The notes under the pieces are model-generated. The model saw nothing but the letters and a program-made list of their open reading frames with translations, searched no databases and was not told where the DNA came from. Made by a program: the position numbers and the translations under genes. From Nitrososphaerales archaeon (lineage in GTDB: Archaea > Thermoproteota > Nitrososphaeria > Conexivisphaerales > UBA164): a DNA stretch of 35,614 nucleotides. The stretch spans positions 1-35,614 of the forward strand of contig JAGDXJ010000012.1 of assembly GCA_023256355.1 (NCBI GenBank), given 5' to 3'. Within the stretch, counting starts at the first letter, position 1. Each line of letters opens with the position of its first letter. Shown here one piece after another: positions 1,450 through 34,085 of this stretch.

Positions 1450-2826
1450 ATGTACAGCGCAGTGCTGTTTGATCGCATAACGATGGGGTTTTCGCTTGCA
1501 GTGCACATCTTTCTTGTATCGTTCGGTATTTCCCTGCCAATAGTGATAGGTGCTGCTGAATTTATAGGGATCAGATACAGGGACAGATACTATGCGGTTT
1601 TAGCCCGCAGACTGACAACTGCCCTTCTGGTGTTTTTTGCAATAGGCACGGCATCAGGGACTGTTGTCGCTCTTGAGCTCCTGCTGCTGTGGCCAAAATT
1701 TATGGCCTTAGTCGGAGCAGTAGACATACTGCCCCTTTATATAGAGGTGTTTGCGTTTTTCACCGAAGCTATATTTCTTTCAACCTATGCGTATTCCTGG
1801 AGTAAAATAAAGAACGGTTATTACCATTTTCTGCTTATAATTCCGGTCATTCTTGGCTCTGTAGGCTCCGGAATCCTGATAACTCTGTTAAATTCATTTA
1901 TGAACACACCGGCAGGCTTTAACATTTCTGAATACCTGCAATCTGGCATAATAACCGGCGTAAACCCGATTGCGGCCCTTTTCTCACCATCTGCATTTTA
2001 CGAAGACCCGCACGCAGTTGGAGGAACTGTGCTTGCAGGCCTGATGATGGTCATGGGCTATTTCTTTTACAGACAGCACAGGTCTGCTGGCGAATCAGGA
2101 ATCTATTACAGAAAGGCGGCAAAGCTGCTGCTTGCCATAAGTTCTGTGTTTGCAGCCTTTGTAATATACACGGGGATCTACAGCATAGAAATGCTGTATT
2201 ATGTTCAGCCGGAAAAGTTCGCAGCTTTTGAAGGTAACCTTGTTCCAACGGCTCACGCCCCGGAGAGGCTTTTCGGGTTTTTCGTTAACGGTAAATGGAT
2301 CGACTACATAGCAATACCAAATTTGCAGAGCATCCTCGCGACTGGATCGTCCAGCGGCATTGTGCCCGGGTTGAGCCAGTTCCCTGCGTACACCTGGCCT
2401 CCGCTCATCGTACACGATATGTTTGACGCCATGGTTCTTCTGGGTTTCCTTGTGGGAATTTATATTCTGGTTACCGACGTTCTGCTCATCCTCGGGAGGT
2501 ACAGACATATCATGCCTTCAGTTATCAGAAGGATATCCAGTATAGACGTGTGGAACAGCAGGTTGCTGATGTGGCTTGCTGTTCTGTTTTCTGTACTTAC
2601 ATTTATTCTTATGGAGCTGGGGTGGATAATGGAAGAGCTCGGACGACAGCCGTGGATAATTTATGGCGTCATGCTTGTATCACAGGCAGGTAACACTTCT
2701 CAATCAATATTTCCCATAATGATTGCCATAATAGCTTTTTACATTGTAATAGTTCCCTTTACGTTCATTTACCTCAGAAACCATTTCAGGTCAAGGCCTG
2801 TGGAGGATGAGATAAAGAATGATTAA
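1450..2826 (+). CDS. cydA: Cytochrome bd quinol oxidase subunit I (CydA)
   Basis: A 458-aa polytopic protein and the quinol-oxidising, heme-bearing subunit of the bd-type terminal oxidase, which reduces O2 to water in the membrane. Visible hallmarks: H19 in the first helix (MGFSLAVHIF), the high-spin heme ligand; E99 and E106 in the helix LYIEVFAFFTEAIF, matching the conserved heme-d-side glutamates; H188 (DPHAVGG), the expected low-spin heme b558 ligand; and the signature GRQPW at 398-402 preceded by GWIMEEL. The Q-loop is short, as in many archaeal and Gram-positive enzymes. The start is a leaderless ATG. It overlaps cydB by 8 bases, so the two are co-transcribed and probably translationally coupled. 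Confidence 0.95.
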   Translation: MYSAVLFDRITMGFSLAVHIFLVSFGISLPIVIGAAEFIGIRYRDRYYAVLARRLTTALLVFFAIGTASGTVVALELLLLWPKFMALVGAVDILPLYIEVFAFFTEAIFLSTYAYSWSKIKNGYYHFLLIIPVILGSVGSGILITLLNSFMNTPAGFNISEYLQSGIITGVNPIAALFSPSAFYEDPHAVGGTVLAGLMMVMGYFFYRQHRSAGESGIYYRKAAKLLLAISSVFAAFVIYTGIYSIEMLYYVQPEKFAAFEGNLVPTAHAPERLFGFFVNGKWIDYIAIPNLQSILATGSSSGIVPGLSQFPAYTWPPLIVHDMFDAMVLLGFLVGIYILVTDVLLILGRYRHIMPSVIRRISSIDVWNSRLLMWLAVLFSVLTFILMELGWIMEELGRQPWIIYGVMLVSQAGNTSQSIFPIMIAIIAFYIVIVPFTFIYLRNHFRSRPVEDEIKND

Positions 2827-3751
2827 TGTGCAGTACATGATAAACTATACTGTGCTGGCAGCGTTTCTGACCCTTTTCATTGCTGAGGTTGGTTCTTCAT
2901 TCGTATTTCTGATAAACAGGAAATACTACCCAAAGATAAAGGAATTTATCACACCGCTATGGGGACCCATAGGGACGTTTGCCATATTCTACGCAGTAAA
3001 TACTGAAGCAACATATCCGTCTGCGCTATCGCTTGTTGGAACGATGTACATAGCTCTCGGAATGACCGCTGGACTGTTCTTCATTCTGAGAAATGCCTTT
3101 ATAATGTACAGTGAAGCGCATTCAGATGAAAGGATGGACCTGATTTATAGAAAGCTGTACGTAGTCATGACAGTGGTTGTGGCATTTCTGGTTGTTACAA
3201 TATTCAGTTCGGCTGTTTCAGGAATAGGCGTTAATGTTTCGCAGGCTTCTGTAAATGCTCTGATAGCAATGCTCAATCCGTTCAACGTGGCTTATTTCAT
3301 ATCTATCTCGCTGATAGCGCTTTCAGTATCATACGTGCAGTTTAATGTAAAGGAAGGGGGTAGAATGGTGCCGCTGGTTTCAACTGCATTAGCGTATATA
3401 ATAATAATAGCGGTTTCAGAAAAATACCTGCCATACTTCGCTTCAGCGCTTGCTACAAACTACTGTGTACTTATAATATCGCTGATAATTGCTGCTGCCG
3501 GGTTTGTCGCATACTTTTTGGGGAAATCAATCTCAAAATACATAATGGGGGTCTGGCTCTTTATCTCGATTGACATGTTCGGAGTAATCCAGTACCCCCA
3601 TCTTTTTGGTACGGCTGCAGAATACACCCAGTTTCTCAATAACTCAGTAATGGCGCTGTACGCCTCATACGTAACTGCTATAGGGGGTTCGCTCGTTGCG
3701 TTTTACCTTGCCATATTTTTATACATTAACTATGTGAAGAAAATTTCCTGA
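2819..3751 (+). CDS. cydB: Cytochrome bd quinol oxidase subunit II (CydB, divergent)
   Basis: A 310-aa protein with about eight hydrophobic helices, directly downstream of and overlapping cydA. CydB binds no heme in the classical enzyme; it forms a pseudo-symmetric partner to CydA and stabilises the active site. The sequence is weakly conserved, as expected for CydB, but length, topology and coupling to cydA support the call. Near the N-terminus, AEVGSSFVFLINRK and PLWGPIGTF match the general position of the CydB start region (helix 1 and the first loop). Its 3' end overlaps the convergent gene at 3726-4367 by 26 bases. No small CydX-like ORF follows. Confidence 0.85.
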   Translation: MINVQYMINYTVLAAFLTLFIAEVGSSFVFLINRKYYPKIKEFITPLWGPIGTFAIFYAVNTEATYPSALSLVGTMYIALGMTAGLFFILRNAFIMYSEAHSDERMDLIYRKLYVVMTVVVAFLVVTIFSSAVSGIGVNVSQASVNALIAMLNPFNVAYFISISLIALSVSYVQFNVKEGGRMVPLVSTALAYIIIIAVSEKYLPYFASALATNYCVLIISLIIAAAGFVAYFLGKSISKYIMGVWLFISIDMFGVIQYPHLFGTAAEYTQFLNNSVMALYASYVTAIGGSLVAFYLAIFLYINYVKKIS

Positions 3752-8038: not shown

Positions 8039-8575
8039 TCAGACGATGGTTATTGTAGCCGATCTTACCTTAGAGTTGATCGCTTCAATAAAATAGTGTC
8101 TGTGAGACCTTACCTGGATCTCTGCAAAAACCTTTGAGCCTTTATCTGCAAAACTCTCGGGTTGAACTGAAAACGTTTCCCTTAATGAAAAAAGGAAGGT
8201 TTTTGCTTCTTCAAAATCCATAAAGAACTCAGACTCAAGGTTTTCATCAATCCCGAGCACCCAGATGTTCGTTCTGTATCTTTCGAGTATGGTTGGATCC
8301 CTTGTCCAGTACAGGACCCACTTTTTAGAAAGCTCTTTTTCAGCAATTTTTTTGTTGAAGAGTATTCCTTTTTCATAAATTGAAACTCTGTACTTCAGTT
8401 TTATCCTCCTGTCCATGTTTCTGTAAGCTTCTTTAATATTTTCGAGCGTAATGCCATCTAAAAAATTCTGGGGAAAAGAAAATTCCACGGTAAAATTGAG
8501 CTTCTCAGCAGATTCTTTCCTGGCCTGAATAACCCTTATAAAGGGTTCCTTGCTGTATTCTGCCTGCGCATTCAA
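8039..8575 (-). CDS. Protein of unknown function, overlapping and downstream of tes
   Basis: A 178-aa soluble-looking protein, mixed alpha/beta, rich in Lys, Glu, Phe and Arg, without cysteines or membrane segments. I do not recognise the family. Its start codon overlaps the stop of the tetraether-synthase gene (ATGA, 8572-8575), so the two are almost certainly translated from one mRNA. That coupling makes it a candidate accessory factor for Tes (substrate delivery, electron supply or membrane docking), but nothing in the sequence itself shows this. Confidence 0.7.
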   Translation of the reverse strand: MNAQAEYSKEPFIRVIQARKESAEKLNFTVEFSFPQNFLDGITLENIKEAYRNMDRRIKLKYRVSIYEKGILFNKKIAEKELSKKWVLYWTRDPTILERYRTNIWVLGIDENLESEFFMDFEEAKTFLFSLRETFSVQPESFADKGSKVFAEIQVRSHRHYFIEAINSKVRSATITIV

Positions 8576-10284
8576 CCGTTTACACCGCTCAGCATTTCGT
8601 TTACCAGACAGCTTGCCCCTGTTCCCTGTTTAATGGCTTCCTTCCTGAGCTGGCCCCTGTAAAGCCTGTCTTCAAGCTTTTCGTTGTGCTGCTTTTCCCA
8701 CTGCTCAACTGGCATTCCGTATTTCTTCTGTATCCTGTCCCTGTACCACTCAGGTATAACGTTAAAGCTGCAGAAAGGTATGATCCTCAGATCAGGAGTG
8801 AGGTAATGTATGTCGCACCTCTGTAACCTTTCTTCGTCATGGTTGTACTTGTCCATAAAGTGCATCATGCCAAGGAACAGGCTGTTCATCTGGAATTTGC
8901 CCACCGAAGAATAATCGTGCTTGAACAGGACTTCAAAAAGGAGCCTGGCAAGGTCCAGCCCTTCTGGCTGGTTCTTTTCGTCTACAAAGCCCTTTAGCTT
9001 CAGCGCAACCTTCGCCAGTTCCACGTATTTATTAGAACCGCTTTCTATCTCTTCTGATACGTCATCGAGGTATTCGAGCAGGCCCTTTATATCAACAAAC
9101 CTGGTTATCGGGACCAGCCTGTCATTTTCTCTATCAAGATAAACGTATGTGCCCGCGCCACAGGCAAAGTGTATCGATAGCTCGTACTGCTTCCTGTTTG
9201 TAATAGCCTCTATAAAGTGAGTTACAGGCGAGCAGCTCGGTACAGGGAACCAGTCTGAGCTTGCTATTTCGCCTTCTGACTGTTCTTCTATCTTCTTTAT
9301 AACATCCGGGATCGTGATCCTGTACTTCTCCCTTTCTTTTTTGCTCATCCTGCCCGTAAGCGATACTGGCTGAAAGTTAACGGCCCTGACAACGTCTATG
9401 TTTTGCTTTGCAAACCTGATTATATCATAAACCTCGTGGTCGTTAACGCTCTTTATGACTGTGGGTACCAGGACAACTCCAAGGTTGGCCTTCCTGCACG
9501 CTTCGATTGCATACGGAGCTTCCCAGTGGTTCTTTGGGTTTGTCTTTGGAGTCACACCGTCAAAGCTCATGTAAAGGTTGCTCACTCCAGCCTCTTTGTA
9601 GACCCTGGCAAGCTCTGGATGGAGCGCTATGTTTATCCCGTTCGTGTTCAGCTGCACGTGGTCTATTCCTTCCTGTTTTATCATCCTTATTATTTCCGGA
9701 AGGTCGTCCCTCAGCGTTGGTTCTCCGCCAGTTATCTGAACCGAGTTTCCCGGCACGGGCCTTTCTGCCCTGAGCGTCCTTACCATGGCCCTGATCTGTT
9801 CGAGCGTGGGTTCATAAACGTAAGCCCCTTCAAGTCCTTTCTTTACATAAAAGAAGCAGTACCAGCACGTAAGGTCACAGCGGTTTGTAACTATTATGTT
9901 AGCCAGCCCCGTATGGCTCAGGTGGTTTGTACATAGCCCGCAGTTTGCAGGGCACTGACACCTGTCCATCTTAACGTTTGGAGCTTCCTGCCCCTTACCG
10001 TCGTCCCAGTATGCGCTGAACCTCCTGTACATCCCGTAATCGCCGAAGTAAAGCTCTTCAGTTTCTCCGTGCACAGGGCACGTTTTGCGCATGTAGACCT
10101 TTCCTTCTCTCTCAAATATTTCAGCGCTTATTATCCTGTTGCACTCAGGGCATATGCTCTGCGTGCTCTTGATTGGATTGTCGCTGAACCTTTCTGTCGG
10201 TTCTTCCTCTTCGCCCTTCACCAACGGTATAAAAATTAACGATTTTTTCTTTTCTCCTTCATTGACATTAGATACCACTGTCAT
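8572..10284 (-). CDS. tes: Radical-SAM tetraether synthase (Tes) homologue
   Basis: About 570 aa. It belongs to the MJ0619/Tes family, which joins two archaeol phytanyl chains by C-C coupling to make macrocyclic diethers and GDGT tetraethers. Visible features, counting from ATG 10284: CPEC at 44-48 and a Cys at 69 (KTCPVHG), an N-terminal metal-site region; a second cluster of cysteines at 109, 111, 115 and 118; the radical-SAM triad C136-C140-C143 (CDLTCWYC) that binds the 4Fe-4S cluster; and GGEP at 186-189 for SAM binding. More cysteines follow in the C-terminal half. I moved the start from the longest frame (TTG, 10326) to ATG 10284, because TTATATATATAAC at 10305-10317 looks like the TATA box and places the transcript start at about 10284. 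The gene heads a two-gene unit with the overlapping 178-aa gene. Confidence 0.85.
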   Translation of the reverse strand: MTVVSNVNEGEKKKSLIFIPLVKGEEEEPTERFSDNPIKSTQSICPECNRIISAEIFEREGKVYMRKTCPVHGETEELYFGDYGMYRRFSAYWDDGKGQEAPNVKMDRCQCPANCGLCTNHLSHTGLANIIVTNRCDLTCWYCFFYVKKGLEGAYVYEPTLEQIRAMVRTLRAERPVPGNSVQITGGEPTLRDDLPEIIRMIKQEGIDHVQLNTNGINIALHPELARVYKEAGVSNLYMSFDGVTPKTNPKNHWEAPYAIEACRKANLGVVLVPTVIKSVNDHEVYDIIRFAKQNIDVVRAVNFQPVSLTGRMSKKEREKYRITIPDVIKKIEEQSEGEIASSDWFPVPSCSPVTHFIEAITNRKQYELSIHFACGAGTYVYLDRENDRLVPITRFVDIKGLLEYLDDVSEEIESGSNKYVELAKVALKLKGFVDEKNQPEGLDLARLLFEVLFKHDYSSVGKFQMNSLFLGMMHFMDKYNHDEERLQRCDIHYLTPDLRIIPFCSFNVIPEWYRDRIQKKYGMPVEQWEKQHNEKLEDRLYRGQLRKEAIKQGTGASCLVNEMLSGVNG

Positions 10285-10304
10285 TACAAAACCATCAACC
10301 GAGG

Positions 10305-10317
10305 TTATATATATAAT
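10305..10317 (-). promoter_or_regulatory. TATA-like box of the tes unit
   Basis: A run of alternating T and A on the minus strand, centred about 27 bases before ATG 10284. It lies inside the longest possible reading frame, which is why the shorter start is preferred. Confidence 0.6.
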
Positions 10318-10537
10318 TTTTAACAAAAATAACGAAAAATTGTACTATAACTCTGTTATATATTTAGAATTAATATTTGTTTTAAAAATAATGAATAAAA
10401 TTTCCTTTAGAATTGCTAAAATGAAAAAACGTCCATATTTTTTGCGATAAGAATACATAAAAGGGTTCGTTGTCAGCAAAAAATCAAACGAACTTCTTTG
10501 ATTTGGTTTAAAACTTTACAGAACATTTTTAAAAATA

Positions 10538-12669: not shown

Positions 12670-12875
12670 GCTTCAGAACTGCCCGATAACCTGTAAAAAG
12701 CTATCATTATTCCGAACGATATAAGGAGCAACCCAATGAATACGCCGCTCAGAAGCCTGGCCAAAGGATCGTTATTTATAATAAGCTGGGATGATAGGTA
12801 TATTCCTGCGATGCTCAGCAGCTCGCCCAAAAGCGTCATGAACAGGCCCACGAGCAAGAGCTGTACTCTTTTCAT
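12666..12875 (-). CDS. Small two-helix membrane protein in the cytochrome b operon
   Basis: A 69-aa protein with two hydrophobic helices (residues ~6-28 and ~40-60) and a short loop (SSQLIINNDPLARLL). It overlaps the genes on both sides by 4 bases, so it is firmly part of the operon. It is likely an accessory subunit of the complex. The Sulfolobus locus has a small extra gene (odsN) after soxN; position suggests an analogy but not homology. Confidence 0.7.
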   Translation of the reverse strand: MKRVQLLLVGLFMTLLGELLSIAGIYLSSQLIINNDPLARLLSGVFIGLLLISFGIMIAFYRLSGSSEA

Positions 12876-14215
12876 TTTCTCAGCCTCTCTATTTTAGATA
12901 TCGATGTCATGGCAGCGTATATAAAACCGGCTATGAGCAAAACGGATATCAGGTATCCCTTTTCAAAGAGCAGAAGAGAAGCTGATGCCCCGATTACAGA
13001 TGTTACAAGAACTGCCATGGCGATCGAAGGATGGGCTTTGCCAGAAGCTGCCGATGAGCGGTGTCTCCTTAAAGCGGCATACGCCGCAAGGGCTTCAATA
13101 AGCGCTATTCCGCCTATGTAGATCACGGCCTGATAGAAAGGTATGGTTTGACCCGGGGTAAGGTAAGCCCAGACTGTAAGAAACATGATAGAGGTAACAA
13201 CTATCATTCCAAGCGTAAAGATCAGAGGCCTTTCAGATGGGCTTCTTCCTTCCTTCATGTCTATTAAAGGCACCAGGAAAAGTATCAGGAACAGAAGCCC
13301 CACGAGGATTAGAGCATAAACTATGTTGGGACCACCGAATATTGATAGCTTCAGTATCTGGTATATCCATAAAAAGTACCAGTCCGGTTCAGGAGTTACC
13401 GACATTGCTGCCTGTACTGAGTACTCAGGCGGCAGGGTTGCAGGAAAAACAGAAGAAATTATCAGAAGACCGCCGATGTAGAACATGGCAAGCATCAGTA
13501 TGTAAAGTATTCCGCCAGGCATCCATGAGGTTTTTTTAACTTCTTCATTCTCAGAGTGCCCTAAAGGTGGAGCTATTCCGTGCACTTCAAAAGTGTACAG
13601 TTTGAGAAAAAGAACCAGCGCAAGCAACAGCGGCAAAAGTATAACGTGCAGCGCGAAGAACCTGGTAAGCTCTGCGGCGTCAGTTCCGTTTCCTACAAGG
13701 AATGATTTAACGGGCCCTGTGAGCCATAAAGGAAAGTAGTTCAGCATCCCTATACCTACATCAGTTGCAGATTTCGATATTACTGTCCACGGAAGAAGGT
13801 AACCCGTAAACCCAAACCCCAAAGTAATCAACCCGAGTATAACTCCATAGAACCACATCGCCTCTCTTGGCTTTTTATATGCTCCAACAAAAAAGTGCCT
13901 GAACATGTGCAGAAAAGTAATCAGTATTATCGCGTAAGCATCGTAAAGATGAAACGTTAAAAGAAGGTTGCCGTATGGCAGTGAAGAAACTATATAGTGC
14001 GTTGATGCCCACGCCTGATCCGGCGTAGGTACGTAATAAAGCAAAAGAAGAAAACCGGTTAACCCCTGCATGATGAATCCTGTGACAAGGATTGCCCCTG
14101 TCCAGTAGTCTGGCCTGAAAGAAAAATTGGGTATTGGCCTCAGAATCCTGTCCACAGCTTTTGTCCCGAACCTTTCTTCTATCCACTTCTGAATCCTTTC
14201 GATTGCGCTGTCCAT
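12872..14215 (-). CDS. soxN: Cytochrome b of a bc1-analogous complex (SoxN-like)
   Basis: A 447-aa membrane protein. Residues 1-220 match the heme-binding four-helix part of cytochrome b: H89 and H103 in helix II (spacing 14), GYLLPWTVISKSATDVG in the Qo region at ~138-153, and H190 in helix IV. The partner position 15 residues after H190 is K205, not His (see findings). The Qo motif PDWY at 277-280 stands in place of PEWY. The C-terminal part adds about four more helices. It passes electrons from quinol to the Rieske protein and CbsA and recycles one to quinone. It starts by TGATG overlap with the Rieske stop, so translation is coupled. Confidence 0.85.
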   Translation of the reverse strand: MDSAIERIQKWIEERFGTKAVDRILRPIPNFSFRPDYWTGAILVTGFIMQGLTGFLLLLYYVPTPDQAWASTHYIVSSLPYGNLLLTFHLYDAYAIILITFLHMFRHFFVGAYKKPREAMWFYGVILGLITLGFGFTGYLLPWTVISKSATDVGIGMLNYFPLWLTGPVKSFLVGNGTDAAELTRFFALHVILLPLLLALVLFLKLYTFEVHGIAPPLGHSENEEVKKTSWMPGGILYILMLAMFYIGGLLIISSVFPATLPPEYSVQAAMSVTPEPDWYFLWIYQILKLSIFGGPNIVYALILVGLLFLILFLVPLIDMKEGRSPSERPLIFTLGMIVVTSIMFLTVWAYLTPGQTIPFYQAVIYIGGIALIEALAAYAALRRHRSSAASGKAHPSIAMAVLVTSVIGASASLLLFEKGYLISVLLIAGFIYAAMTSISKIERLRK

Positions 14216-14796
14216 CAGACTACGCTTCCCCCTTGCAGATCATAAGAAACATCTGAAGAACACGAAGGTCCGTGCGAATAGATCGTTGGCGGTTCCATGC
14301 CAACAGCGTAAATATCTCCTGTTGAGCTGTCGAGCTCGAGTATCACGCGCGGTACCGGACATGGCGCTGGACCTCCTACCACCTTGGCGTCCTCAAGAAA
14401 ATTGTAAAGGCTCCCGTGACAAGGACAGTGTCCTCCCGGAACATCAGGCCCTCCGTAGGGGGCAAGAGAAGTCCTGAAGTGGTATATGCAGCCGTAATGC
14501 TCGCAAATAGCGCTGAAAGCTACTACGTTTTTCTGCGGCCCTATACCATACTCTGCCGGCTGCGAAAGCATTACAAGAAAGTTTGGTTCGTTTGAAAGCG
14601 GGTAGTTAAATATGACCGGCTGGTTTACTTCCAGCTGAGATATGTTTGCTACCTTCACCTTTGGAAACGTTGTTACTACTTCCCCGCTTACTGTAGCGTA
14701 ATCAAGGATGGGCTTTGCCAGTCCTCCAACAACTATAAGGGCCCCAAGCGCGATCATGCCCTTTAAAAAGTTCCTCTTTTCTTCATCAACGCTCAT
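14215..14796 (-). CDS. soxL2: Rieske iron-sulfur protein (SoxL2-like)
   Basis: A 193-aa protein. The N-terminal anchor (residues ~12-35) follows EKRNFLKG, a Tat-like start with a KR pair. The 2Fe-2S domain is complete: C98, H100 and C103 (CEHYGC) and C124, C126 and H127 (CPCHGS). The ligands are C98, H100, C124 and H127; C103 and C126 form the usual disulfide. GGPAPCPVPR (141-150) follows as the Pro loop. It takes one electron from quinol at cytochrome b and hands it to the outside acceptor, here probably the CbsA-like protein. ATGA overlap with the upstream gene. Confidence 0.92.
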   Translation of the reverse strand: MSVDEEKRNFLKGMIALGALIVVGGLAKPILDYATVSGEVVTTFPKVKVANISQLEVNQPVIFNYPLSNEPNFLVMLSQPAEYGIGPQKNVVAFSAICEHYGCIYHFRTSLAPYGGPDVPGGHCPCHGSLYNFLEDAKVVGGPAPCPVPRVILELDSSTGDIYAVGMEPPTIYSHGPSCSSDVSYDLQGGSVV

Positions 14797-15980
14797 TTTG
14801 TGACCACCGGCTCAGGTTTGCGAGAAACAGCAAAATACGTTATTGCTGCCCCCGCGATGACAACGACTAAAAACGCAAGATCGATGTAAAGCACTCCGTT
14901 AACTGCAGAGAATGATGGAGGAGGTGAATTCGATATATCCACTGTTATAAAAGTAGAAATCGATTTTATGAACGCGTTTTCCCCATAATAACCCTGCCAT
15001 ACAGCAAAAGCAACGTCATACGTTGAGTTTGGCTGAAGGTCAACCTCATAATTTCCAGCTCCTGCCGGCGTTCCCATCTGTCTTACCATTTCAACAACCC
15101 AAGTGTGAGTTGTATTGTACGCGTTGGCCTGAACAACATACGGGTTGGTCTGGTTTGTAGCCACATCGTTGTAAAACAGACCTGTTCCCAGGCCGACTTC
15201 ATAAAGGTTTGAAGCGTTGGTGTAAAGGTTTAGAGCAAAGCCGTAAGGAGGAGCCCTGTAATTTACTCCGGTAAACGTAACGTTGTTACTCCACCATCTG
15301 TAATAATCTGAAAGCGGCCTCAACGGATACCCAACCCCTATATGGAACGGTTGAGTTGTGTTCCATGTAGCTCCCATCATAAAATCCCATATATCAGCTG
15401 CCCCGCCTGCCTGCAGCGCCCCACCGTTGGGCTTTCCAACGACCATGCAGTCGTTAGGCGTTCCGCTCTGGCCACCGAGGTACCACATGATTGCTACCCT
15501 GTCCTGTGAATAGTACGTTGAATTGACGTAGTATGACTTTACAACTGTTTCCTCAAGGCTTCTGGGAGGAGCAGGCACGTACTGTCCCGAGCTCTGGTTA
15601 TACCAAAGGGGCGGGTAACCAGGTGGACCACCACCGAGTGAGAACACGCTGGACATCATGTGGCTTGGTACGGTGGCATTCCATGAAAGGAGCACAAACA
15701 GATCAGTCCCGTTGTTAGCCATTTTAACCAGTATGTATGATGTATGACCACCATTTGGAACGTTCGCTGAAAGCGGGACTTCTGTCCATGGTATGGAAGC
15801 CCAGAAACCCTCACTTCCAGGGGATGCAAGGTTAGCATTGCCTTTAACCCTGTAAGCAACAATCCCTGCATTTGTAAGGGTCTGAGCGTGATTGAGCATT
15901 ACGTTACCTGAAGACAATACAATCAGAGCTATGACAAACATAGAAGAAACTAAGGCCAAACGGCCGGAGAGCTTAAACAT
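14793..15980 (-). CDS. cbsA: CbsA-like glycosylated heme protein with ethylbenzene-dehydrogenase-type domain
   Basis: A 395-aa protein. It has an N-terminal signal peptide (residues ~8-32), a large outside domain, and a single C-terminal helix (~365-388) with a basic tail, so it is anchored facing outward. The domain has the pattern of ethylbenzene-dehydrogenase-type heme-binding proteins (early FWASIPWTEVPL, later ADIWDFMMGATWN). Ten N-x-S/T sequons are visible, fitting the heavy glycosylation known for Sulfolobus CbsA (cytochrome b558/566). It probably carries one b heme and accepts electrons from the Rieske protein. It is first in the operon, with a TATA-like ATATATAAATTATT about 30 bases before ATG 15980. 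Confidence 0.75.
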   Translation of the reverse strand: MFKLSGRLALVSSMFVIALIVLSSGNVMLNHAQTLTNAGIVAYRVKGNANLASPGSEGFWASIPWTEVPLSANVPNGGHTSYILVKMANNGTDLFVLLSWNATVPSHMMSSVFSLGGGPPGYPPLWYNQSSGQYVPAPPRSLEETVVKSYYVNSTYYSQDRVAIMWYLGGQSGTPNDCMVVGKPNGGALQAGGAADIWDFMMGATWNTTQPFHIGVGYPLRPLSDYYRWWSNNVTFTGVNYRAPPYGFALNLYTNASNLYEVGLGTGLFYNDVATNQTNPYVVQANAYNTTHTWVVEMVRQMGTPAGAGNYEVDLQPNSTYDVAFAVWQGYYGENAFIKSISTFITVDISNSPPPSFSAVNGVLYIDLAFLVVVIAGAAITYFAVSRKPEPVVTK

Positions 15981-25856: not shown

Positions 25857-27530
25857 ATGGCCAAATATGTTCTGATTTCTGATCTTACTTTACTTTATAA
25901 CTACAGAAACTTTCCGTTACTTGATTTTCTACCCTGTGCTCCCTCAGGTTCGATACCTGGCTTTCTCTATTCTTTTTTAAAGGGAAGTGAGTCTCCACCC
26001 ATGGAAAACGGCGAGGCTATGTTCAGCCCGTATTCGGTCAGAAAGATAGAAGCTTCTCTGCTTAAGAGAAACAGGAGAGAAGAAGTTGCTGTGCCACATT
26101 TTGACTACATAGACAGATTTATAGGTGAAGATACCGAGGTCATAGGCATTTCTACCATGGATCCGCTTGGCTTTGGACCGTTAACCATGTCTTTCGCTGC
26201 GCTGCTCGGGAAAAATGATGAAGCCTGGGTTAAAAAAGAGTGGGAGTTCCTTTTAAAAAAGATAAACGCTGTAAAAGGGAGATCAAAGCTTGTAGTTGGA
26301 GGCCCTGGAGTATGGGAGTTTACCGTGATGCCGGAAGAGCTTGACAGGTTTGACGTAGATTACGCCGTACAGGGTGAAATCGACGACCTGGCCCCCGAAC
26401 TTTTTGAGCAGATATCGGAGGGTAGCATAGACAGGAACCTGTTTTTTAACGGCTACGTTTCTTATGATGAGAGCTTCAGGAGGTTCAGCAAACCTGATGA
26501 AAGGTTCATTTCACGCAGGATTGGCACCAGGATGTACCCGACTCTTGACGAAATACCTGAAATTGTCAGGCCATCTATGAAAGGGCTCACAGAAGTTATG
26601 AGGGGCTGTGGCATTGGCTGCGATTTTTGCGAGGTAACGCTCAGGCCCCTCAGGTATTATAGCGTTGAAAAAATAAAAAGGGAAATAGAGGTAAACGCAA
26701 AAGCAGGGTTGCAGTCAGCCTGGTTACATTCAGATGAAATATTCGCTTACATGCACGGTCCCAGGTTCGAACCAAACTTTGAAGCGATTACAGAACTTTT
26801 TAAAGGGGTCATGTCGGTAAAGAATATTTCCCATACAAATCCAACCCACGGGAGGATATCTATACCGGCTGGTTATCCTGACCTCATAAAGAAGGTTTCA
26901 GAAATTATAAAAGCTGGGCCGGATAACTGGATAGGCATACAGGTTGGTCTTGAAACAGGCAGCGAAAGGCTTGCCAAGCTTCACATGCCGAACAAAACGT
27001 TGCCCCTCAGGGTAGGTCCTGACGGCAGCTGGCAGGAGATAGTCTGGATGGGCGTTTACAACTTAAACAGGTATTACTGGAGACCAGCTTTTACCGTTCA
27101 GGTTGGACAGATGGAGGAAACAGACGAAGATAACTGGGAAACTGTAGCTCTTATAAACAGGCTGAGCAACTCTGAGGTTGATGGCAGACCCTTTGAATTT
27201 ACGGTAACCCCTATGCAGAACGTGCCGCTCGGGCTGATAAAGAACAGGGAGCTAAAATCTTTGAAGCTGACAAAATCCCAGCTTGCGGTCTATTATGCAT
27301 CCTACAGACACCTTGCAAAAATGGCTGCGCGCGACGCTTATTCTGAGGGCGCGGGTAACCCCCTGTCAAGGCTTGGCGCTTCATTGCTTATACATATGGG
27401 TGGCTGGTTTATGATGAAGTTTATCGAAGATATATGCAAAAAGAACGGAATTGATGTTGAAAAGGTGAAGAATTACGGGCTGGGAAACACAATGACAATT
27501 ACATCCAGAGTTCGGCTTGCACAAACCTAA
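25857..27530 (+). CDS. Radical-SAM GDGT ring synthase (Grs) homologue
   Basis: 557 aa. Residues 1-240 hold a Rossmann-like, B12-binding-type domain (VIGISTMDPLG near 95-105; KLVVGGPGVWEF near 144-155; YAVQGEID near 169-176). Residues 245-480 hold the radical-SAM core with the triad C251-C255-C258 (CGIGCDFCEVTLRPLRYYS). The string after the triad and the domain order match the archaeal GrsA/GrsB enzymes that put cyclopentane rings into GDGT tetraethers, and the C-terminal part (TPMQNVPLG, GGWFMMKF) continues that family pattern. The rings tighten the membrane against acid and heat. With Tes in the same window, both the coupling and ring-forming steps are present. GrsA versus GrsB cannot be told by eye. 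Confidence 0.8.
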   Translation: MAKYVLISDLTLLYNYRNFPLLDFLPCAPSGSIPGFLYSFLKGSESPPMENGEAMFSPYSVRKIEASLLKRNRREEVAVPHFDYIDRFIGEDTEVIGISTMDPLGFGPLTMSFAALLGKNDEAWVKKEWEFLLKKINAVKGRSKLVVGGPGVWEFTVMPEELDRFDVDYAVQGEIDDLAPELFEQISEGSIDRNLFFNGYVSYDESFRRFSKPDERFISRRIGTRMYPTLDEIPEIVRPSMKGLTEVMRGCGIGCDFCEVTLRPLRYYSVEKIKREIEVNAKAGLQSAWLHSDEIFAYMHGPRFEPNFEAITELFKGVMSVKNISHTNPTHGRISIPAGYPDLIKKVSEIIKAGPDNWIGIQVGLETGSERLAKLHMPNKTLPLRVGPDGSWQEIVWMGVYNLNRYYWRPAFTVQVGQMEETDEDNWETVALINRLSNSEVDGRPFEFTVTPMQNVPLGLIKNRELKSLKLTKSQLAVYYASYRHLAKMAARDAYSEGAGNPLSRLGASLLIHMGGWFMMKFIEDICKKNGIDVEKVKNYGLGNTMTITSRVRLAQT

Positions 27531-27543
27531 AAAACAAAAAATA

Positions 27544-28998
27544 TCATGACTTTAAATGTACCATCAGGAAACCTGCATCTTCGGATCGCGGGCAGCCTTT
27601 TTTGCATCTGATCATGTACCTTATCCCTATTATCCCTCCTGCTGCCATGAGCGCAACGCCAAAACCCGCAAGTATCAGTAACGGAGCCGAAAGAAATACG
27701 AGGGAATACAGCTCTCCAGCAACAAAAGATATGATTTCCCCGGAGATGAACAGGTAACCTGTGAGCGCTCTTTCTTTCCCGCTGATACCGTATATTTCAA
27801 AAGTTACGATCGCAGTTACAAGCGCTGGTAAAAGGAAAAATCCAAAGTCCTGATGAAACCTTGTATAAGCAAAATCAAAAGCGGCCCCGGGAGCACCTGG
27901 AAGAGCACCCGCTGCTCCAAAGAACGTCTCATGAAATTCTATCCAGTATCCCGTAACGGGTATTGTAAGGTAAATTAAAATCCATCCAGTTATCAGGCTT
28001 ATAAAAAGCGGGTCCCTGAGCATGCCCTTTCCCCCTGCATGCCAGATAAGCGCTATCATGATAAGAAGGGCACCCCATCCTATGATCCCGGTTATTGCGT
28101 CGTCCATTGCAAGCCCGTTTATGTCGCTGGGACCGGAAGAAAAAAGAGTAGGTATTGAATAGTTTCCAACGCCAGAAATTATGTAGATCACAGCGGCAGC
28201 AAGCATGGCTCCTGCCATGATCGTAATTCCTGCATAAGTGAGGTATCTGACGCCTTTTGAAGCGTTCAAAAGACCGTAAACAAAGGCAACTATCACTACT
28301 ATTCCAGCCATTATTACGGGGAGCATGAGATGCGAATGAGACGTCACTACATCTTCAGTCCACGTTATTACAGCTGTTGTATTGTAGTAGCCAAGGACAG
28401 GATACATTGTCTGGTTTATGTAATTGCCCACAAAAGAAGGCCATGGACCGAACCATGTAATCCATCCAGCTATGTGACCCATAAAAGCTGAGATAAGGGT
28501 AAGGAAAACAGCAAACGCCATGAACGAGTTAACTGCCTTCAAAGATTTTGAGCTGACCTGAAATGCCTTCACCGCAAACGCCGCTATCAGAGCCAAAGCT
28601 ATTTCATCCCCCACAAGAAAAGCAACTATCTGAGACCACAGCGGTATTCCGAAGAGAAACCTGTCATAGACATCGAATATTCCAGCTACGCCGGCAAGAG
28701 GTATAGCTATGATCCCTCCTATAAAAACAGAATCCCTTATCAGAAGGCCGGGAAAGCCTTTCATCTGATACAGATCAAAGACAGAACACATAAGGGCCGC
28801 TAACGCCACTATTAACGGAACGAATATTGCCCCGTGCCAGTAAAGCACAAGGCGCCAGAATACATCAGGAGTGTACGCGTTGTTATAAGCTGGATTGAGA
28901 AACGGCGTTAAATAGTTCAGCACGGGAAATATCGCTATCAGTCCAAGCCCCCAGCTAAAAGACCATATCATTATAAATTTACACGTTGGGACTCTCAT
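27544..28998 (-). CDS. Histidine-rich polytopic membrane protein, possible heme protein
   Basis: A 484-aa protein with 12-13 helices. Histidines lie in or next to helices at 55 (YWHGAIF), 175 (MGHIAGW), 221 and 223 (SHSHLMLP), 320 (IWHAGG), 356 (EFHETFFG) and 382 (RFHQDFGFF). That spread, with many Trp and Gly around them, recalls subunit I of heme-copper oxidases and NorB, but the order of ligands does not match either in full. It could be a distant, unassigned member of the heme-copper group or another heme-bearing membrane enzyme. Leaderless ATG with TTATATACAATC 25-30 bases upstream. Confidence 0.6.
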   Translation of the reverse strand: MRVPTCKFIMIWSFSWGLGLIAIFPVLNYLTPFLNPAYNNAYTPDVFWRLVLYWHGAIFVPLIVALAALMCSVFDLYQMKGFPGLLIRDSVFIGGIIAIPLAGVAGIFDVYDRFLFGIPLWSQIVAFLVGDEIALALIAAFAVKAFQVSSKSLKAVNSFMAFAVFLTLISAFMGHIAGWITWFGPWPSFVGNYINQTMYPVLGYYNTTAVITWTEDVVTSHSHLMLPVIMAGIVVIVAFVYGLLNASKGVRYLTYAGITIMAGAMLAAAVIYIISGVGNYSIPTLFSSGPSDINGLAMDDAITGIIGWGALLIMIALIWHAGGKGMLRDPLFISLITGWILIYLTIPVTGYWIEFHETFFGAAGALPGAPGAAFDFAYTRFHQDFGFFLLPALVTAIVTFEIYGISGKERALTGYLFISGEIISFVAGELYSLVFLSAPLLILAGFGVALMAAGGIIGIRYMIRCKKGCPRSEDAGFLMVHLKS

Positions 28999-29897: not shown

Positions 29898-32111
29898 TTA
29901 TGGCCTGAGAAACGACCATAGAGTTACAGTGACGCTGTTCATGGACATCGCAAGGGCCGCAAACTGGGGAGCAAGGTAGATTGCCGGGTAAAGAACTCCT
30001 GCCGCTAGCGGTATAAAAAACGAGTTGTACCCGAAAGCCCAGATCAGGTTTTCCTTTATCCTCTTCTCGAGCTTTTTTGCCCCTTCCCAGAGCACCTTTA
30101 GGGCCGTTGGGGCAAATATGATAACGTCTCCTGCCTGTTTGCTTATTTCAGATCCTGTGTTCATCGCAACTCCTACAAACGCCGTCCTTAACGCCAGCGC
30201 ATCGTTGACTCCGTCCCCCACGAACATGACATTCTCGAAAGATTTTACGAGCTCAGCCTTTTTTTCCGGCGTCAGCCCTTTGTAGACTCGTACGCCAAGC
30301 TCCTTTCCAACCTGATCTGCAAAATCGCTTGAATCGCCTGTCGCTATTATTACTTGATACCTTTTTTTAAGATCTGCTATAACCTCCTTAACGCCTTCCC
30401 TTATCTCATCCCTGACCCTGAATGAAACCACCGGCTTAAAGTCCACACAGCCTATTATGTCCCCCTCAGGAACATCTTCACAGTTGCTGGCTATGAATTC
30501 CCTTTTTCCTACTATAACTGTATGGCCTTCCACCGTGCCCATGACCCCTTCTCCCGGGAATTCGTTGAAGTCCTTTACTTCAAGCCTTTTTTTGCCAAGC
30601 TTTGAAATTGCTCGGGCAACAGGATGGGAGCTCAGAGATTCAAGCGCAGCGACCAGTTCAAGACCGTTCTCATCGTAAGCTTTAACGGGTTCAACCTTAA
30701 CATCGCCGGTTGTTATGGTCCCGGTTTTATCAAAGATTATAGTTTTAACCTCCTTGAGCTTTTCCAGCGCTGATCCGTGCCTTACTATAACCCCTCTTTT
30801 GGAGAGCTCCCTGATTTCGGCCAGCACGGCGAGGGGCGTTGCAAGCCCGAGCGCGCACGGACAGGCAGCAGCAAGCACGGCTATAGCAAAAAGGAGCGCA
30901 AGGCTTGCGGGAACGAAAAAGTGCCATACAAAAAAAGTTACAGCTGCTATGATCATTATTACAGGCGTAAAGTAAGCAGCTGCCCTGTCTACTGCCCTCT
31001 TCAGCCCAATAGAAGTTGTGCTGGCATCGTTGATGGCTTTTACCAGCTGGCTTACGTAAGACCTCTCTCCAGCCCTTGTGGTGTATACTTTAAGGTATCC
31101 GTTTGTTAAAGTCGTTCCCGATATAACCGCGTCCCCCTTACTTTTCTTTACAGGAAGCGTTTCCCCGGTTAAAATGGATTCGTTAACTTCACCTGAACCA
31201 TCTTCGACCACTCCGTCCACGGGTATGACCTCCCCTGATTTTACCGTTATTATGTCTCCAACGCTGACCTGATCTGAATCAACTATCTTTCCGCTTTCCA
31301 GCCTTGCCGTATATTTTGGTGCATGAACGTAAGATATTCTGTACCTAAGGTATGAATCTATGGTCTTTCCTACCAGCACAAAGGTTATCAGAAGGCTTGC
31401 CGCATCAAAGAAAACTTCTCCGCCGCGAATTAAGTTAAACACGCTGTAAGCCCATGCGGTTCCGGCAGAAAGCGCCACAAGAGTATCCATATCAGCTGTC
31501 CTGTTTTTCAGAGCCCTGTAAGCTCCCGAAAAGTACCTTCTGCCCGAGTATACAATTACCGGAACTGAAAAAATAAAAGCCAAAAAATTCATGTATCTGT
31601 ACTGAAAATAAAGCACAAACGAAGTAAAGATGGCCCCTGCAACCAGAGAATAAATCATAGAGTTTAACTCGCGTTTTACAAAAGATGTCTCCCCTTTTTT
31701 CTTATCGTCAACCTCTACAGGACTGTAATCCCTGAGCTTTTCAACCACTAATTTCTGGTCAGCTGTGGCCGGGTTTATTTTGAGGTTCAGAACGCTGGTT
31801 GACGGGTTAAAATCTGCTGAAACTATACCCGGGATGTCTGAAAGGATCTCCATAATCCTTCTCGAGTTTTCGGGGTTTGCCTTGAGGACCAGCTTCAAAT
31901 CTTTTGTTTCAACGTCATACCCGGCCCTTTTTACAGCTTCCACTATGCTGTTAAGCCTGTAAGAACCCTTTATTTCTGCAAAACCCGTTGCAAGGTTGAC
32001 AGATACCGCTTTAACGCCTTCAACTTTACCTATAGCCTTTGATACGGTGTTCACGCAGGTGGCACAGTGCATCCCAACAATCTTCAGCTTTTCTTCTTTT
32101 TCAGAGCTCAA
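29898..32111 (-). CDS. copA: Copper-exporting P-type ATPase (CopA)
   Basis: A 737-aa P1B ATPase that pumps Cu(I) out of the cytoplasm. The N-terminal metal-binding domain has GMHCATC at 13-19. A second ferredoxin-like domain (~71-135) lacks any CxxC. Eight helices carry CPC at 417-419 in the ion path. Phosphorylation site D461 in DKTGT; actuator TGE at 315-317; the P1B SHP loop near 495-497; and the hinge GDGVND near residue 645. The start is TTG 32111, overlapping the stop of copM (TTGA), so translation is coupled to copM. Confidence 0.95.
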   Translation of the reverse strand: MSSEKEEKLKIVGMHCATCVNTVSKAIGKVEGVKAVSVNLATGFAEIKGSYRLNSIVEAVKRAGYDVETKDLKLVLKANPENSRRIMEILSDIPGIVSADFNPSTSVLNLKINPATADQKLVVEKLRDYSPVEVDDKKKGETSFVKRELNSMIYSLVAGAIFTSFVLYFQYRYMNFLAFIFSVPVIVYSGRRYFSGAYRALKNRTADMDTLVALSAGTAWAYSVFNLIRGGEVFFDAASLLITFVLVGKTIDSYLRYRISYVHAPKYTARLESGKIVDSDQVSVGDIITVKSGEVIPVDGVVEDGSGEVNESILTGETLPVKKSKGDAVISGTTLTNGYLKVYTTRAGERSYVSQLVKAINDASTTSIGLKRAVDRAAAYFTPVIMIIAAVTFFVWHFFVPASLALLFAIAVLAAACPCALGLATPLAVLAEIRELSKRGVIVRHGSALEKLKEVKTIIFDKTGTITTGDVKVEPVKAYDENGLELVAALESLSSHPVARAISKLGKKRLEVKDFNEFPGEGVMGTVEGHTVIVGKREFIASNCEDVPEGDIIGCVDFKPVVSFRVRDEIREGVKEVIADLKKRYQVIIATGDSSDFADQVGKELGVRVYKGLTPEKKAELVKSFENVMFVGDGVNDALALRTAFVGVAMNTGSEISKQAGDVIIFAPTALKVLWEGAKKLEKRIKENLIWAFGYNSFFIPLAAGVLYPAIYLAPQFAALAMSMNSVTVTLWSFLRP

Positions 32112-32371: not shown

Positions 32372-32959
32372 ATGGAGCTGGATGACGTTGACGTTGAGAT
32401 AATAAACTCTCTTATTGAAGACGGTTGCCTGTCTCTCAGGGATCTTGCAAAGGTTACGGGCCTTTCCCCTCCTTCTTTAAACGCAAGGCTGAAAAGGCTT
32501 AAGGATTCAGGGATAATAAAGGGGAGCACAGTTTTGATAGACAGGAACAGGATGAAGAGCGGAGTTTCGGCTTTTTTATTTATCAGGTGTGACCCTTCAA
32601 GCCTCAAAAAGGTTGAAGAGAGCCTTTCCGCTTTAGAAGACGTAACTGAAATCTACAGGCTTACTGGCTTTTACAACCTTCTAGTTAAATCCGAGGTAGA
32701 AGACGTAAACGCTCTTGACAGGCTTAACGAGGAGATAGGTAAAAACGAGGGCATCATTGAGGTTAACACACACCTTATAAGCGAATACGTTAAGGAAAAG
32801 CACAAAAAATTCAAAAGGATCAGGGCGGACTTAAAGTGCGAATACTGCGGAAACATCATCAGCGGAAAGCCTTATCTGCTTGAATACAGAGGGGTGACAA
32901 GGTTTTTCTGCTGTCCCACCTGTTTGAGGGAGTTCAAGAAAAAGTATGGCGTTGCATGA
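32372..32959 (+). CDS. copT: Copper-responsive Lrp-like regulator with TRASH domain (CopT/CopR)
   Basis: 195 aa in three parts: an AsnC/Lrp-type helix-turn-helix (residues 1-50, LSLRDLAKVTGLSPPSLNARLKRL in pieces), a RAM-like alpha/beta dimer domain (~60-140), and a C-terminal TRASH domain with C156, C159 (CEYC), C180, C181 and C184 (CCPTC). This build defines the archaeal copper sensor CopT/CopR, which binds Cu(I) through TRASH and controls the export genes. It is divergent from copM-copA with a shared regulatory region holding a perfect palindrome. Confidence 0.9.
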   Translation: MELDDVDVEIINSLIEDGCLSLRDLAKVTGLSPPSLNARLKRLKDSGIIKGSTVLIDRNRMKSGVSAFLFIRCDPSSLKKVEESLSALEDVTEIYRLTGFYNLLVKSEVEDVNALDRLNEEIGKNEGIIEVNTHLISEYVKEKHKKFKRIRADLKCEYCGNIISGKPYLLEYRGVTRFFCCPTCLREFKKKYGVA

Positions 32960-33021: not shown

Positions 33022-33417
33022 ATGTACGAATATAAAACCGCTTTGACGCTGTCTTTGATAGGTGTTGCTTTTCAGGCCTTTGCCTGGATTTTTTTGATGC
33101 TTTTTCGCGGGTTCTGGTTCGCAAGAGCATACGCCTATCCTGGTTCTTATATGGGAATGATGTACTTTTCTGCTTACGGTTTCAGCTGGTTCCCGTTTTA
33201 TACATTCCTTGGCTTTATCGTGGTGGCCCTTGGAATAACCGGGATCTGGCTCCTGAGCAGCGGTGAAAAAGACAAGGCCACCGTGGGTTCCGTGCTTATC
33301 ATAGCTGGCTCTGTCATGGCCTTTCCAACGATGTTCGGTTTTATGGTGGGTTCACTGTTAATGCTTATAGGCGGAATCATGGGTTTAACCCTGGAACCTG
33401 AGGTGAACAGGGCATGA
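33022..33417 (+). CDS. Four-helix membrane protein, first gene of the cupredoxin unit
   Basis: 131 aa with four hydrophobic helices (residues ~9-28, ~52-72, ~88-105, ~107-122). An aromatic, Met- and Tyr-rich loop (RGFWFARAYAYPGSYMGMM) faces outward between helices 1 and 2. I do not recognise the family. It overlaps the cupredoxin gene by 4 bases (ATGA), so the two act together; it might anchor the cupredoxin or help its metal loading. Confidence 0.7.
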   Translation: MYEYKTALTLSLIGVAFQAFAWIFLMLFRGFWFARAYAYPGSYMGMMYFSAYGFSWFPFYTFLGFIVVALGITGIWLLSSGEKDKATVGSVLIIAGSVMAFPTMFGFMVGSLLMLIGGIMGLTLEPEVNRA

Positions 33418-34085
33418 AAGGTCCTGCTGTAATTGCACTGGTTCTCATTGTCGTAATCGGGACAGCCTTTCTTGCTTATCCTCTTATGCTTTATTTTTAT
33501 GGGCCAGTATATAATCAGAGACCTTACCAGGGTTACAGCATGATGACCTATTACGGAAAAACGGTCCCGGTTAACGAGGCCATGATGGAAGCTTTATCTG
33601 TTCCCTCATACGTTAAGGTGATTCCGGCCAACGATACAGCAGTAATAAACTCAACTTATGTAAAGCTGACAGTCTATGCCATGATGGGGAGCATGGCTGA
33701 AAAAATAACCGGACAAAAGATGCCGGCTTATGCACACGGTGATGTTTTTGTCATTTACGGTCTGATAAACCCCACTCTGGTGTTTAACACAGCAGGCAGA
33801 CCGGTTACGCTGATCATTACGCTGATCAATCTAGATGATGATATGTACCACAACTTTGTATTAACTGTTCAGCCCCCGCCGTACAGCTATATGGTTGGAC
33901 CGGGCATGATGTCCTTTTCAGGAGGTTTTATGGAAATGATGCCCTATCTGCCTCCTGCAAGCAATGGCAACGCGTATACCTATTCATATTCGGTTCAGCT
34001 TCAGGGGCAAAACACTTTCTGGTACATATGCACCTATCCCGGGCATGCAGAAAACGGTATGTACGGAGAGATCGTTATAACGTGA
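33414..34085 (+). CDS. Membrane-anchored, methionine-rich cupredoxin (blue copper protein)
   Basis: 223 aa. Helix 6-28 anchors the protein in the membrane; the rest lies outside the cell. The C-terminal cupredoxin domain shows the type 1 copper ligands: H146 (MYHNFVLT), C206 and H211 (CTYPGH), and M216, with spacing C-x4-H-x4-M as in sulfocyanin and rusticyanin-like proteins. Met clusters are unusual (MMEA, MMGSM, GMMSF, MEMM). It could carry electrons to a terminal oxidase. Its place next to the copper cluster and its Met content also allow a role in holding Cu outside the cell. Coupled by ATGA to the gene before it. Confidence 0.85.
   Translation: MKGPAVIALVLIVVIGTAFLAYPLMLYFYGPVYNQRPYQGYSMMTYYGKTVPVNEAMMEALSVPSYVKVIPANDTAVINSTYVKLTVYAMMGSMAEKITGQKMPAYAHGDVFVIYGLINPTLVFNTAGRPVTLIITLINLDDDMYHNFVLTVQPPPYSYMVGPGMMSFSGGFMEMMPYLPPASNGNAYTYSYSVQLQGQNTFWYICTYPGHAENGMYGEIVIT

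Follow-up and report, generated by a model that had tools for sequence, protein, structure and literature searches.

An uncharacterized membrane protein family of acidophilic archaea with a predicted heme-copper oxidase-like fold and conserved histidines in a different layout

We analyzed a stretch of DNA of 35,614 nucleotides from a Nitrososphaerales archaeon (contig JAGDXJ010000012.1), referred to here as the window. On its minus strand, positions 28998 to 27544 form an open reading frame whose product has 484 amino acids and, in an AlphaFold model, 12 transmembrane (TM) helices. The protein carries histidines at positions 55, 175, 221, 223, 320, 356, 382 and 481, which is not an unusual count for its length. 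An earlier note, made from the sequence alone, had listed the first seven of these positions exactly, without giving the strand of the gene, and had estimated 12-13 helices, in line with the model. In that model, H55 lies in TM2, H175 in TM5, H221 and H223 in TM6, H320 at the end of TM8, H356 in TM9 and H382 in TM10. All of the following features are on the minus strand. According to the secondary structure of the model, TM2 comprises residues 48-73 (28780-28857) and includes the codon for H55 (28836-28834). TM6 comprises residues 207-240 (28279-28380) and holds an invariant SHSHxM motif, with H221 encoded at 28338-28336 and H223 at 28332-28330. TM10 comprises residues 372-402 (27793-27885), with the H382 codon at 27855-27853. 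The codon for H175 is at 28474-28476.

Several genes in the window relate to respiration or copper. Cytochrome bd genes (1450-3751, plus strand) include a subunit II that scores only 20.6 bits against a Pfam cut-off of 35.6 and so is strongly diverged. Genes for cytochrome b, a Rieske protein and a heme-binding-type protein with an EB_dh domain follow each other at 12872-15980 (minus strand) and correspond to a bc-type complex whose third subunit is unusual. A copper-transporting P-type ATPase is encoded at 29898-32111 (minus strand; NCBIfam TIGR01511, 472 bits). Divergent from it is a gene for an Lrp/AsnC regulator with a TRASH domain (32372-32959, plus strand), and the two are likely a copper-response pair. 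A membrane-anchored cupredoxin resembling rusticyanin or sulfocyanin is encoded at 33414-34085 (plus strand; TIGR03095, 99.9 bits, below the curated cut-off of 146.7). Two genes encode proteins related to radical SAM enzymes. One, on the plus strand at 25857-27530, encodes a B12-binding/radical-SAM-like protein; its end and the stop of the 484-residue protein's gene, which is on the opposite strand, are 13 bases apart. The other, at 8572-10326 (minus strand), has an HMPTM-type N-terminal zinc ribbon (PF23545 and PF04055) and presumably resembles tetraether-lipid synthase.

Searches of Pfam, NCBIfam and PDB sequences with single proteins and with the family alignment gave nothing useful, and a Pfam scan of 11 family members at E-values up to 10 returned no matches, including to PF00115 (COX1) and PF05940 (NnrS). 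The family alignment consists of the window protein and 17 homologues, whose identity to the window protein ranges from 74% down to 24%. H55, H221 and H223 are invariant among the 18 members, and H382 is kept in 17, with Gln in the remaining one (L035). H175 is specific to certain clades (12 members have it and 6 do not), and H320 and H356 vary. Thus, of the seven histidines emphasized previously, only H55, H221, H223 and H382 retain their significance, and these four answer the concern that the histidines might not be conserved at all. The alignment has 28 columns in which 17 or all 18 of the sequences agree, and four of the eight histidines fall among them (hypergeometric P = 5e-4); by this measure of the sequences, it is the conservation of the four, not the number of histidines, that exceeds chance. 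The homologue L101 contains just four histidines in total, all of them equivalents of these four.

Other positions are also fixed, namely Y272, D375 and an NGxAxDD motif, and E354 is kept in 17 of 18 members. In the window protein, the motif reads NGLAMDD (residues 294-300; 28099-28119, minus strand) and is located at the outer end of TM8; N294, G295, A297, D299 and D300 are invariant. Conserved arginines that could serve heme propionates are almost lacking on the outer side in the 18 members. In every member, inner loops contain 10-18 Lys and Arg residues, versus 0-3 in outer loops. Because of this positive-inside charge, we place TM2, TM6 and TM10 as running from outside to inside; the membrane's outer third then holds all four of the conserved histidines.

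Homologues are present in the window's own order, elsewhere in its class and in two further groups of the phylum, as well as in a MAG labeled Sulfolobaceae (L003) and on a MAG contig labeled Actinomycetes (L004). The best reading is a stand-alone, patchily distributed family of acidophilic archaea and one actinobacterial MAG. The copy nearest to the window protein (L099, 6479-7927; 74% identical) is closer than those of same-order relatives and belongs to a genome (G405) that we take to resemble Vulcanisaeta moutnovskia. Since this copy is the nearest, and four same-genus genomes lack the gene, horizontal transfer among acidophiles is likely. A short remnant of 84 amino acids with SHSY in place of SHSH (L102, 6080-6334), in a complete genome presumably resembling Caldisphaera, is probably a decayed copy.

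The family is found in genomes both with and without a canonical oxidase. The COX1 profile PF00115 is unmatched in the window's own genome, although the gene is present there. Member genomes without a COX1 match are G000, G005-G008, G010, G012, G199 and G405, and most of them have a cytochrome bd gene. We take G012 to resemble Conexivisphaera calidus, a strict anaerobe. Other members occur in genomes with a typical COX1 (G011, G014, G105, G138, G174 and G218) or beside a COX1-family protein of qNOR length (G564 and G529, the latter presumably resembling Acidilobus saccharovorans). A published survey described cydAB in UBA164, coxAB in DTJL01 and an anaerobic Conexivisphaeraceae (PMC10833072), and these families resemble f1, f2 and f3 of our genome set. 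For Conexivisphaeraceae, that survey reported neither coxAB nor cydAB (PMC10833072), although G012 yields a CydA match of 183.9 bits and a heme O synthase match of 228 bits.

Clustering of neighboring genes across loci revealed no common operon partner and no neighbor common to most loci. A motif scan of the neighborhoods found no c-type heme motif, and no cupredoxin except at L002. The L002 copy is also flanked by a copper ATPase paralogue, and its nearby cupredoxin is 40% identical to that of the window. It is possible that the copper ATPase is linked to the family gene and that the window cupredoxin is an electron carrier. In the genus g2 (G005, G008 and G010) the family gene adjoins that for heme O synthase (CtaB), and in G014 the two are one gene apart. 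However, almost all genomes examined have CtaB, whether or not they carry the family gene, and its presence is therefore not diagnostic. We regard these heme- and copper-gene links as suggestive only.

AlphaFold modeling of the window protein with 11 aligned members gave a pLDDT of 76.7 and a pTM of 0.82. A model of homologue L010, which is 31% identical to the window protein, reached a pTM of 0.83, although the two models are not fully independent, because their alignments have members in common. Both predicted structures show the 12-helix pseudo-threefold arrangement of heme-copper oxidases (HCOs). When they were compared with the PDB by using Foldseek, HCO subunit I ranked first for each (cbb3, ba3, bo3 and qNOR). 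The top 20 matches of the window model were all HCO or qNOR chains, with probabilities of 0.98-1.00 and TM-scores up to 0.57 (cbb3); the best non-HCO match listed was a GPCR (probability 0.51, TM-score 0.24), and transporters reached at most 0.30. For the L010 model, HCO and qNOR matches had probabilities of 0.89-1.00 and TM-scores up to 0.57, and no other listed match exceeded 0.30. E-values are modest (1.5e-3 at best), with rmsd values of 7-9 Å. As far as the models can be trusted, the likeness to HCOs is remote, yet repeated and specific, and the family very probably has an HCO-like fold. The suggestion of a COX1- or NorB-like fold, made originally from the distribution of histidines, was thus a good lead.

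The histidine layout is a different matter. In HCOs, the heme ligands, together with one copper ligand, are found on TM2, TM6 and TM10 at a matching outer depth. To our knowledge, neither the core histidines nor the helices that bear them differ among catalytic HCO subunits. Among 38 archaeal HCO and NOR control sequences, the TM2 histidine is present in 38, that of TM6 in 36, the HH after TM7 in 38, and the two histidines of the TM10 HxH in 38 and 35. The layout of our 18-member family is instead one histidine on TM2, HxH on TM6 and one histidine on TM10. H55 corresponds to the low-spin heme ligand on TM2 in all 18 members, an equivalence by helix number only. TM10 has the single H382 in place of HxH. 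Of the CuB/FeB triad, a TM6 histidine is present, but no member has a histidine at the end of TM7, so the HH signature is absent. The FeB ligands of cNOR and qNOR (three His and a Glu) are also not found. The protein was therefore not classified as an oxidase or NO reductase, and its sequence indicates something other than a known type of O2 or NO reductase. The earlier note had recognized the departure from the precise ligand pattern of HCOs, which the absence of both HH and the TM10 HxH bears out; its idea of a diverged oxidase, taken in the functional sense, is not supported by these ligands.

Comparison with individual systems leads to a similar picture. The best structural match, cbb3 CcoN (PDB 3mk7 and 6xkw; TM-score 0.57, probability 1.00), shares the TM2 histidine, but differs from the family in its HH after TM7 and TM10 HxH, with only 13-14% identity, and no genes like CcoO or CcoP were seen beside the family gene. 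The enzyme qNOR (PDB 8zgp and 8bgw; TM-score 0.50-0.53) is likewise a single-subunit protein of the HCO fold, and its TM10 motif HAHLA(M/F)P resembles the SHSHLMLP of the family. However, the family motif is on TM6, and the family lacks both the FeB site and the N-terminal cytochrome-c-like domain of qNOR. NnrS is a heme- and copper-containing 12-TM protein. It can be likened to the family by description only, on the basis of size, helix number and proposed metal content, and no NnrS Pfam match was obtained with the 11 members scanned.

Profile comparisons raise the question of whether the cofactor helices are shifted in register. When the family was aligned with HCO profiles by using hhalign, a single weak local match was found, in which TM4-7 of the family pair with TM8-11 of HCOs and SHSH falls on the TM10 HxH. 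This match recurred in most resampled subsets with scores of 24-43 (mean ~34), versus 23-37 (mean ~29) and scattered positions for reversed controls. Sequence similarity to HCOs is marginal by this measure. The match would fit, marginally, a cofactor set moved by four helices in the pseudo-threefold ring. We also cut the family at each loop, rejoined the parts and compared the results with HCO profiles; no full-length permuted match appeared. Circular permutation of the HCO fold in this family is thus no more than a possibility.

On balance we lean slightly toward a heme protein of one subunit that shares the 12-helix pseudo-threefold fold with HCO subunit I and represents a branch outside the curated families. 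The protein probably binds heme, and the chance that it binds two hemes is about even. The heme-protein reading draws support from the first rank of HCO subunit I for both models, from the positive-inside charge of all 18 members, from conserved histidines on TM2, TM6 and TM10 at the outer depth of HCO heme ligands, from the repeated placement of SHSH on the HCO TM10 HxH, and from the proximity of heme O synthase genes in g2 and G014 and of a copper ATPase and cupredoxin to two copies. It is weakened by the near-universal presence of CtaB, by the Gln that replaces H382 in L035, by the near lack of conserved outer arginines, and by the modest Foldseek statistics and marginal sequence similarity.

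The pseudo-threefold geometry suggests that TM6 would take the part played by TM10 in oxidases, and HCO geometry suggests that the HxH on this central helix would face two adjacent pores. H223 and H382 might then clamp one low-spin bis-His heme. H221 could hold a second heme, whose far side would point toward H55 and be either bis-His coordinated or an open or noncanonical metal site. A normal heme-CuB or heme-FeB reaction center is impossible, since the whole set of three CuB histidines is lacking. Electrons would arrive at the outer face, with quinol or a small carrier (for instance, a cupredoxin) as the most likely donor, and would then be relayed or be used for reduction of a small gas (NO or O2) at the H221 heme. 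The protein could assist bd oxidase, or anaerobic respiration, in an accessory role. Assignment of any one catalytic role is doubtful at best. The phrase "unrecognized membrane oxidoreductase", used when the gene was noticed, is plausible. A more ambitious proposal, which we consider tentative, is a separate HCO-fold enzyme class with two bis-His hemes, or with one heme and a non-His metal site. TM6, not TM10, would be its cofactor helix, the redox site having been rotated by one third of the ring through circular permutation or independent recruitment, and its hosts would be anaerobic and microaerophilic acidophiles.

The family is unlikely to be a catalytically true, strongly diverged NO or O2 reductase within the HCO superfamily, with residues such as Asp, Glu or Tyr near H55 in place of the CuB/FeB histidines. 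Such an enzyme would account for the HCO fold of both models, for an H55 that still faces a putative high-spin heme, and for a stand-alone single-subunit gene, as with qNOR; D299, D300, E354 and D375 are conserved acidic residues on the outer side. However, the HH fixed in all controls has no counterpart, and no acidic residue near H55 is conserved family-wide (some clades have lost D112, D131 and E132). Reduction of O2 as the main role is further made unlikely by the member in the genome resembling C. calidus.

Less likely again is a noncatalytic protein for heme sensing, storage or transfer on an oxidase scaffold, for example in handling heme O. The gene arrangements in g2 and G014 and the lack of an electron-transfer partner gene common to the loci suit such a role, but most copies are away from heme genes and a sensor or signaling domain is absent. 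Least likely is a heme-free ordinary transporter or ion channel, the outcome that the earlier note set against its own lead, with histidines that bind a metal ion or protons and a spurious HCO-like model: the family has no sequence homology to known families and its conserved acidic residues could bind metal, but both models favor HCOs, with MFS, MATE and GltPh matches at TM-scores of ~0.1-0.2 and probabilities below 0.35, and Pfam yields no match.

With a single-subunit heme protein as the preferred reading, these sequences and models indicate a real, uncharacterized family that combines an HCO-like predicted fold with a different conserved histidine layout. The open-access literature that we searched contains no report of an HCO-fold protein without CuB, of a permuted HCO or of this protein. 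Inference of oxygen use in early-branching Nitrososphaeria has relied solely on coxAB and cydAB genes (PMC10833072), and the family marks an unannotated, probably redox-active protein in these organisms. If the HCO-like fold with another histidine layout is true, also in genomes without a canonical oxidase, then the scaffold would be older or more adaptable than the oxidase function, and the family would provide a test of how the heme-copper site arose.
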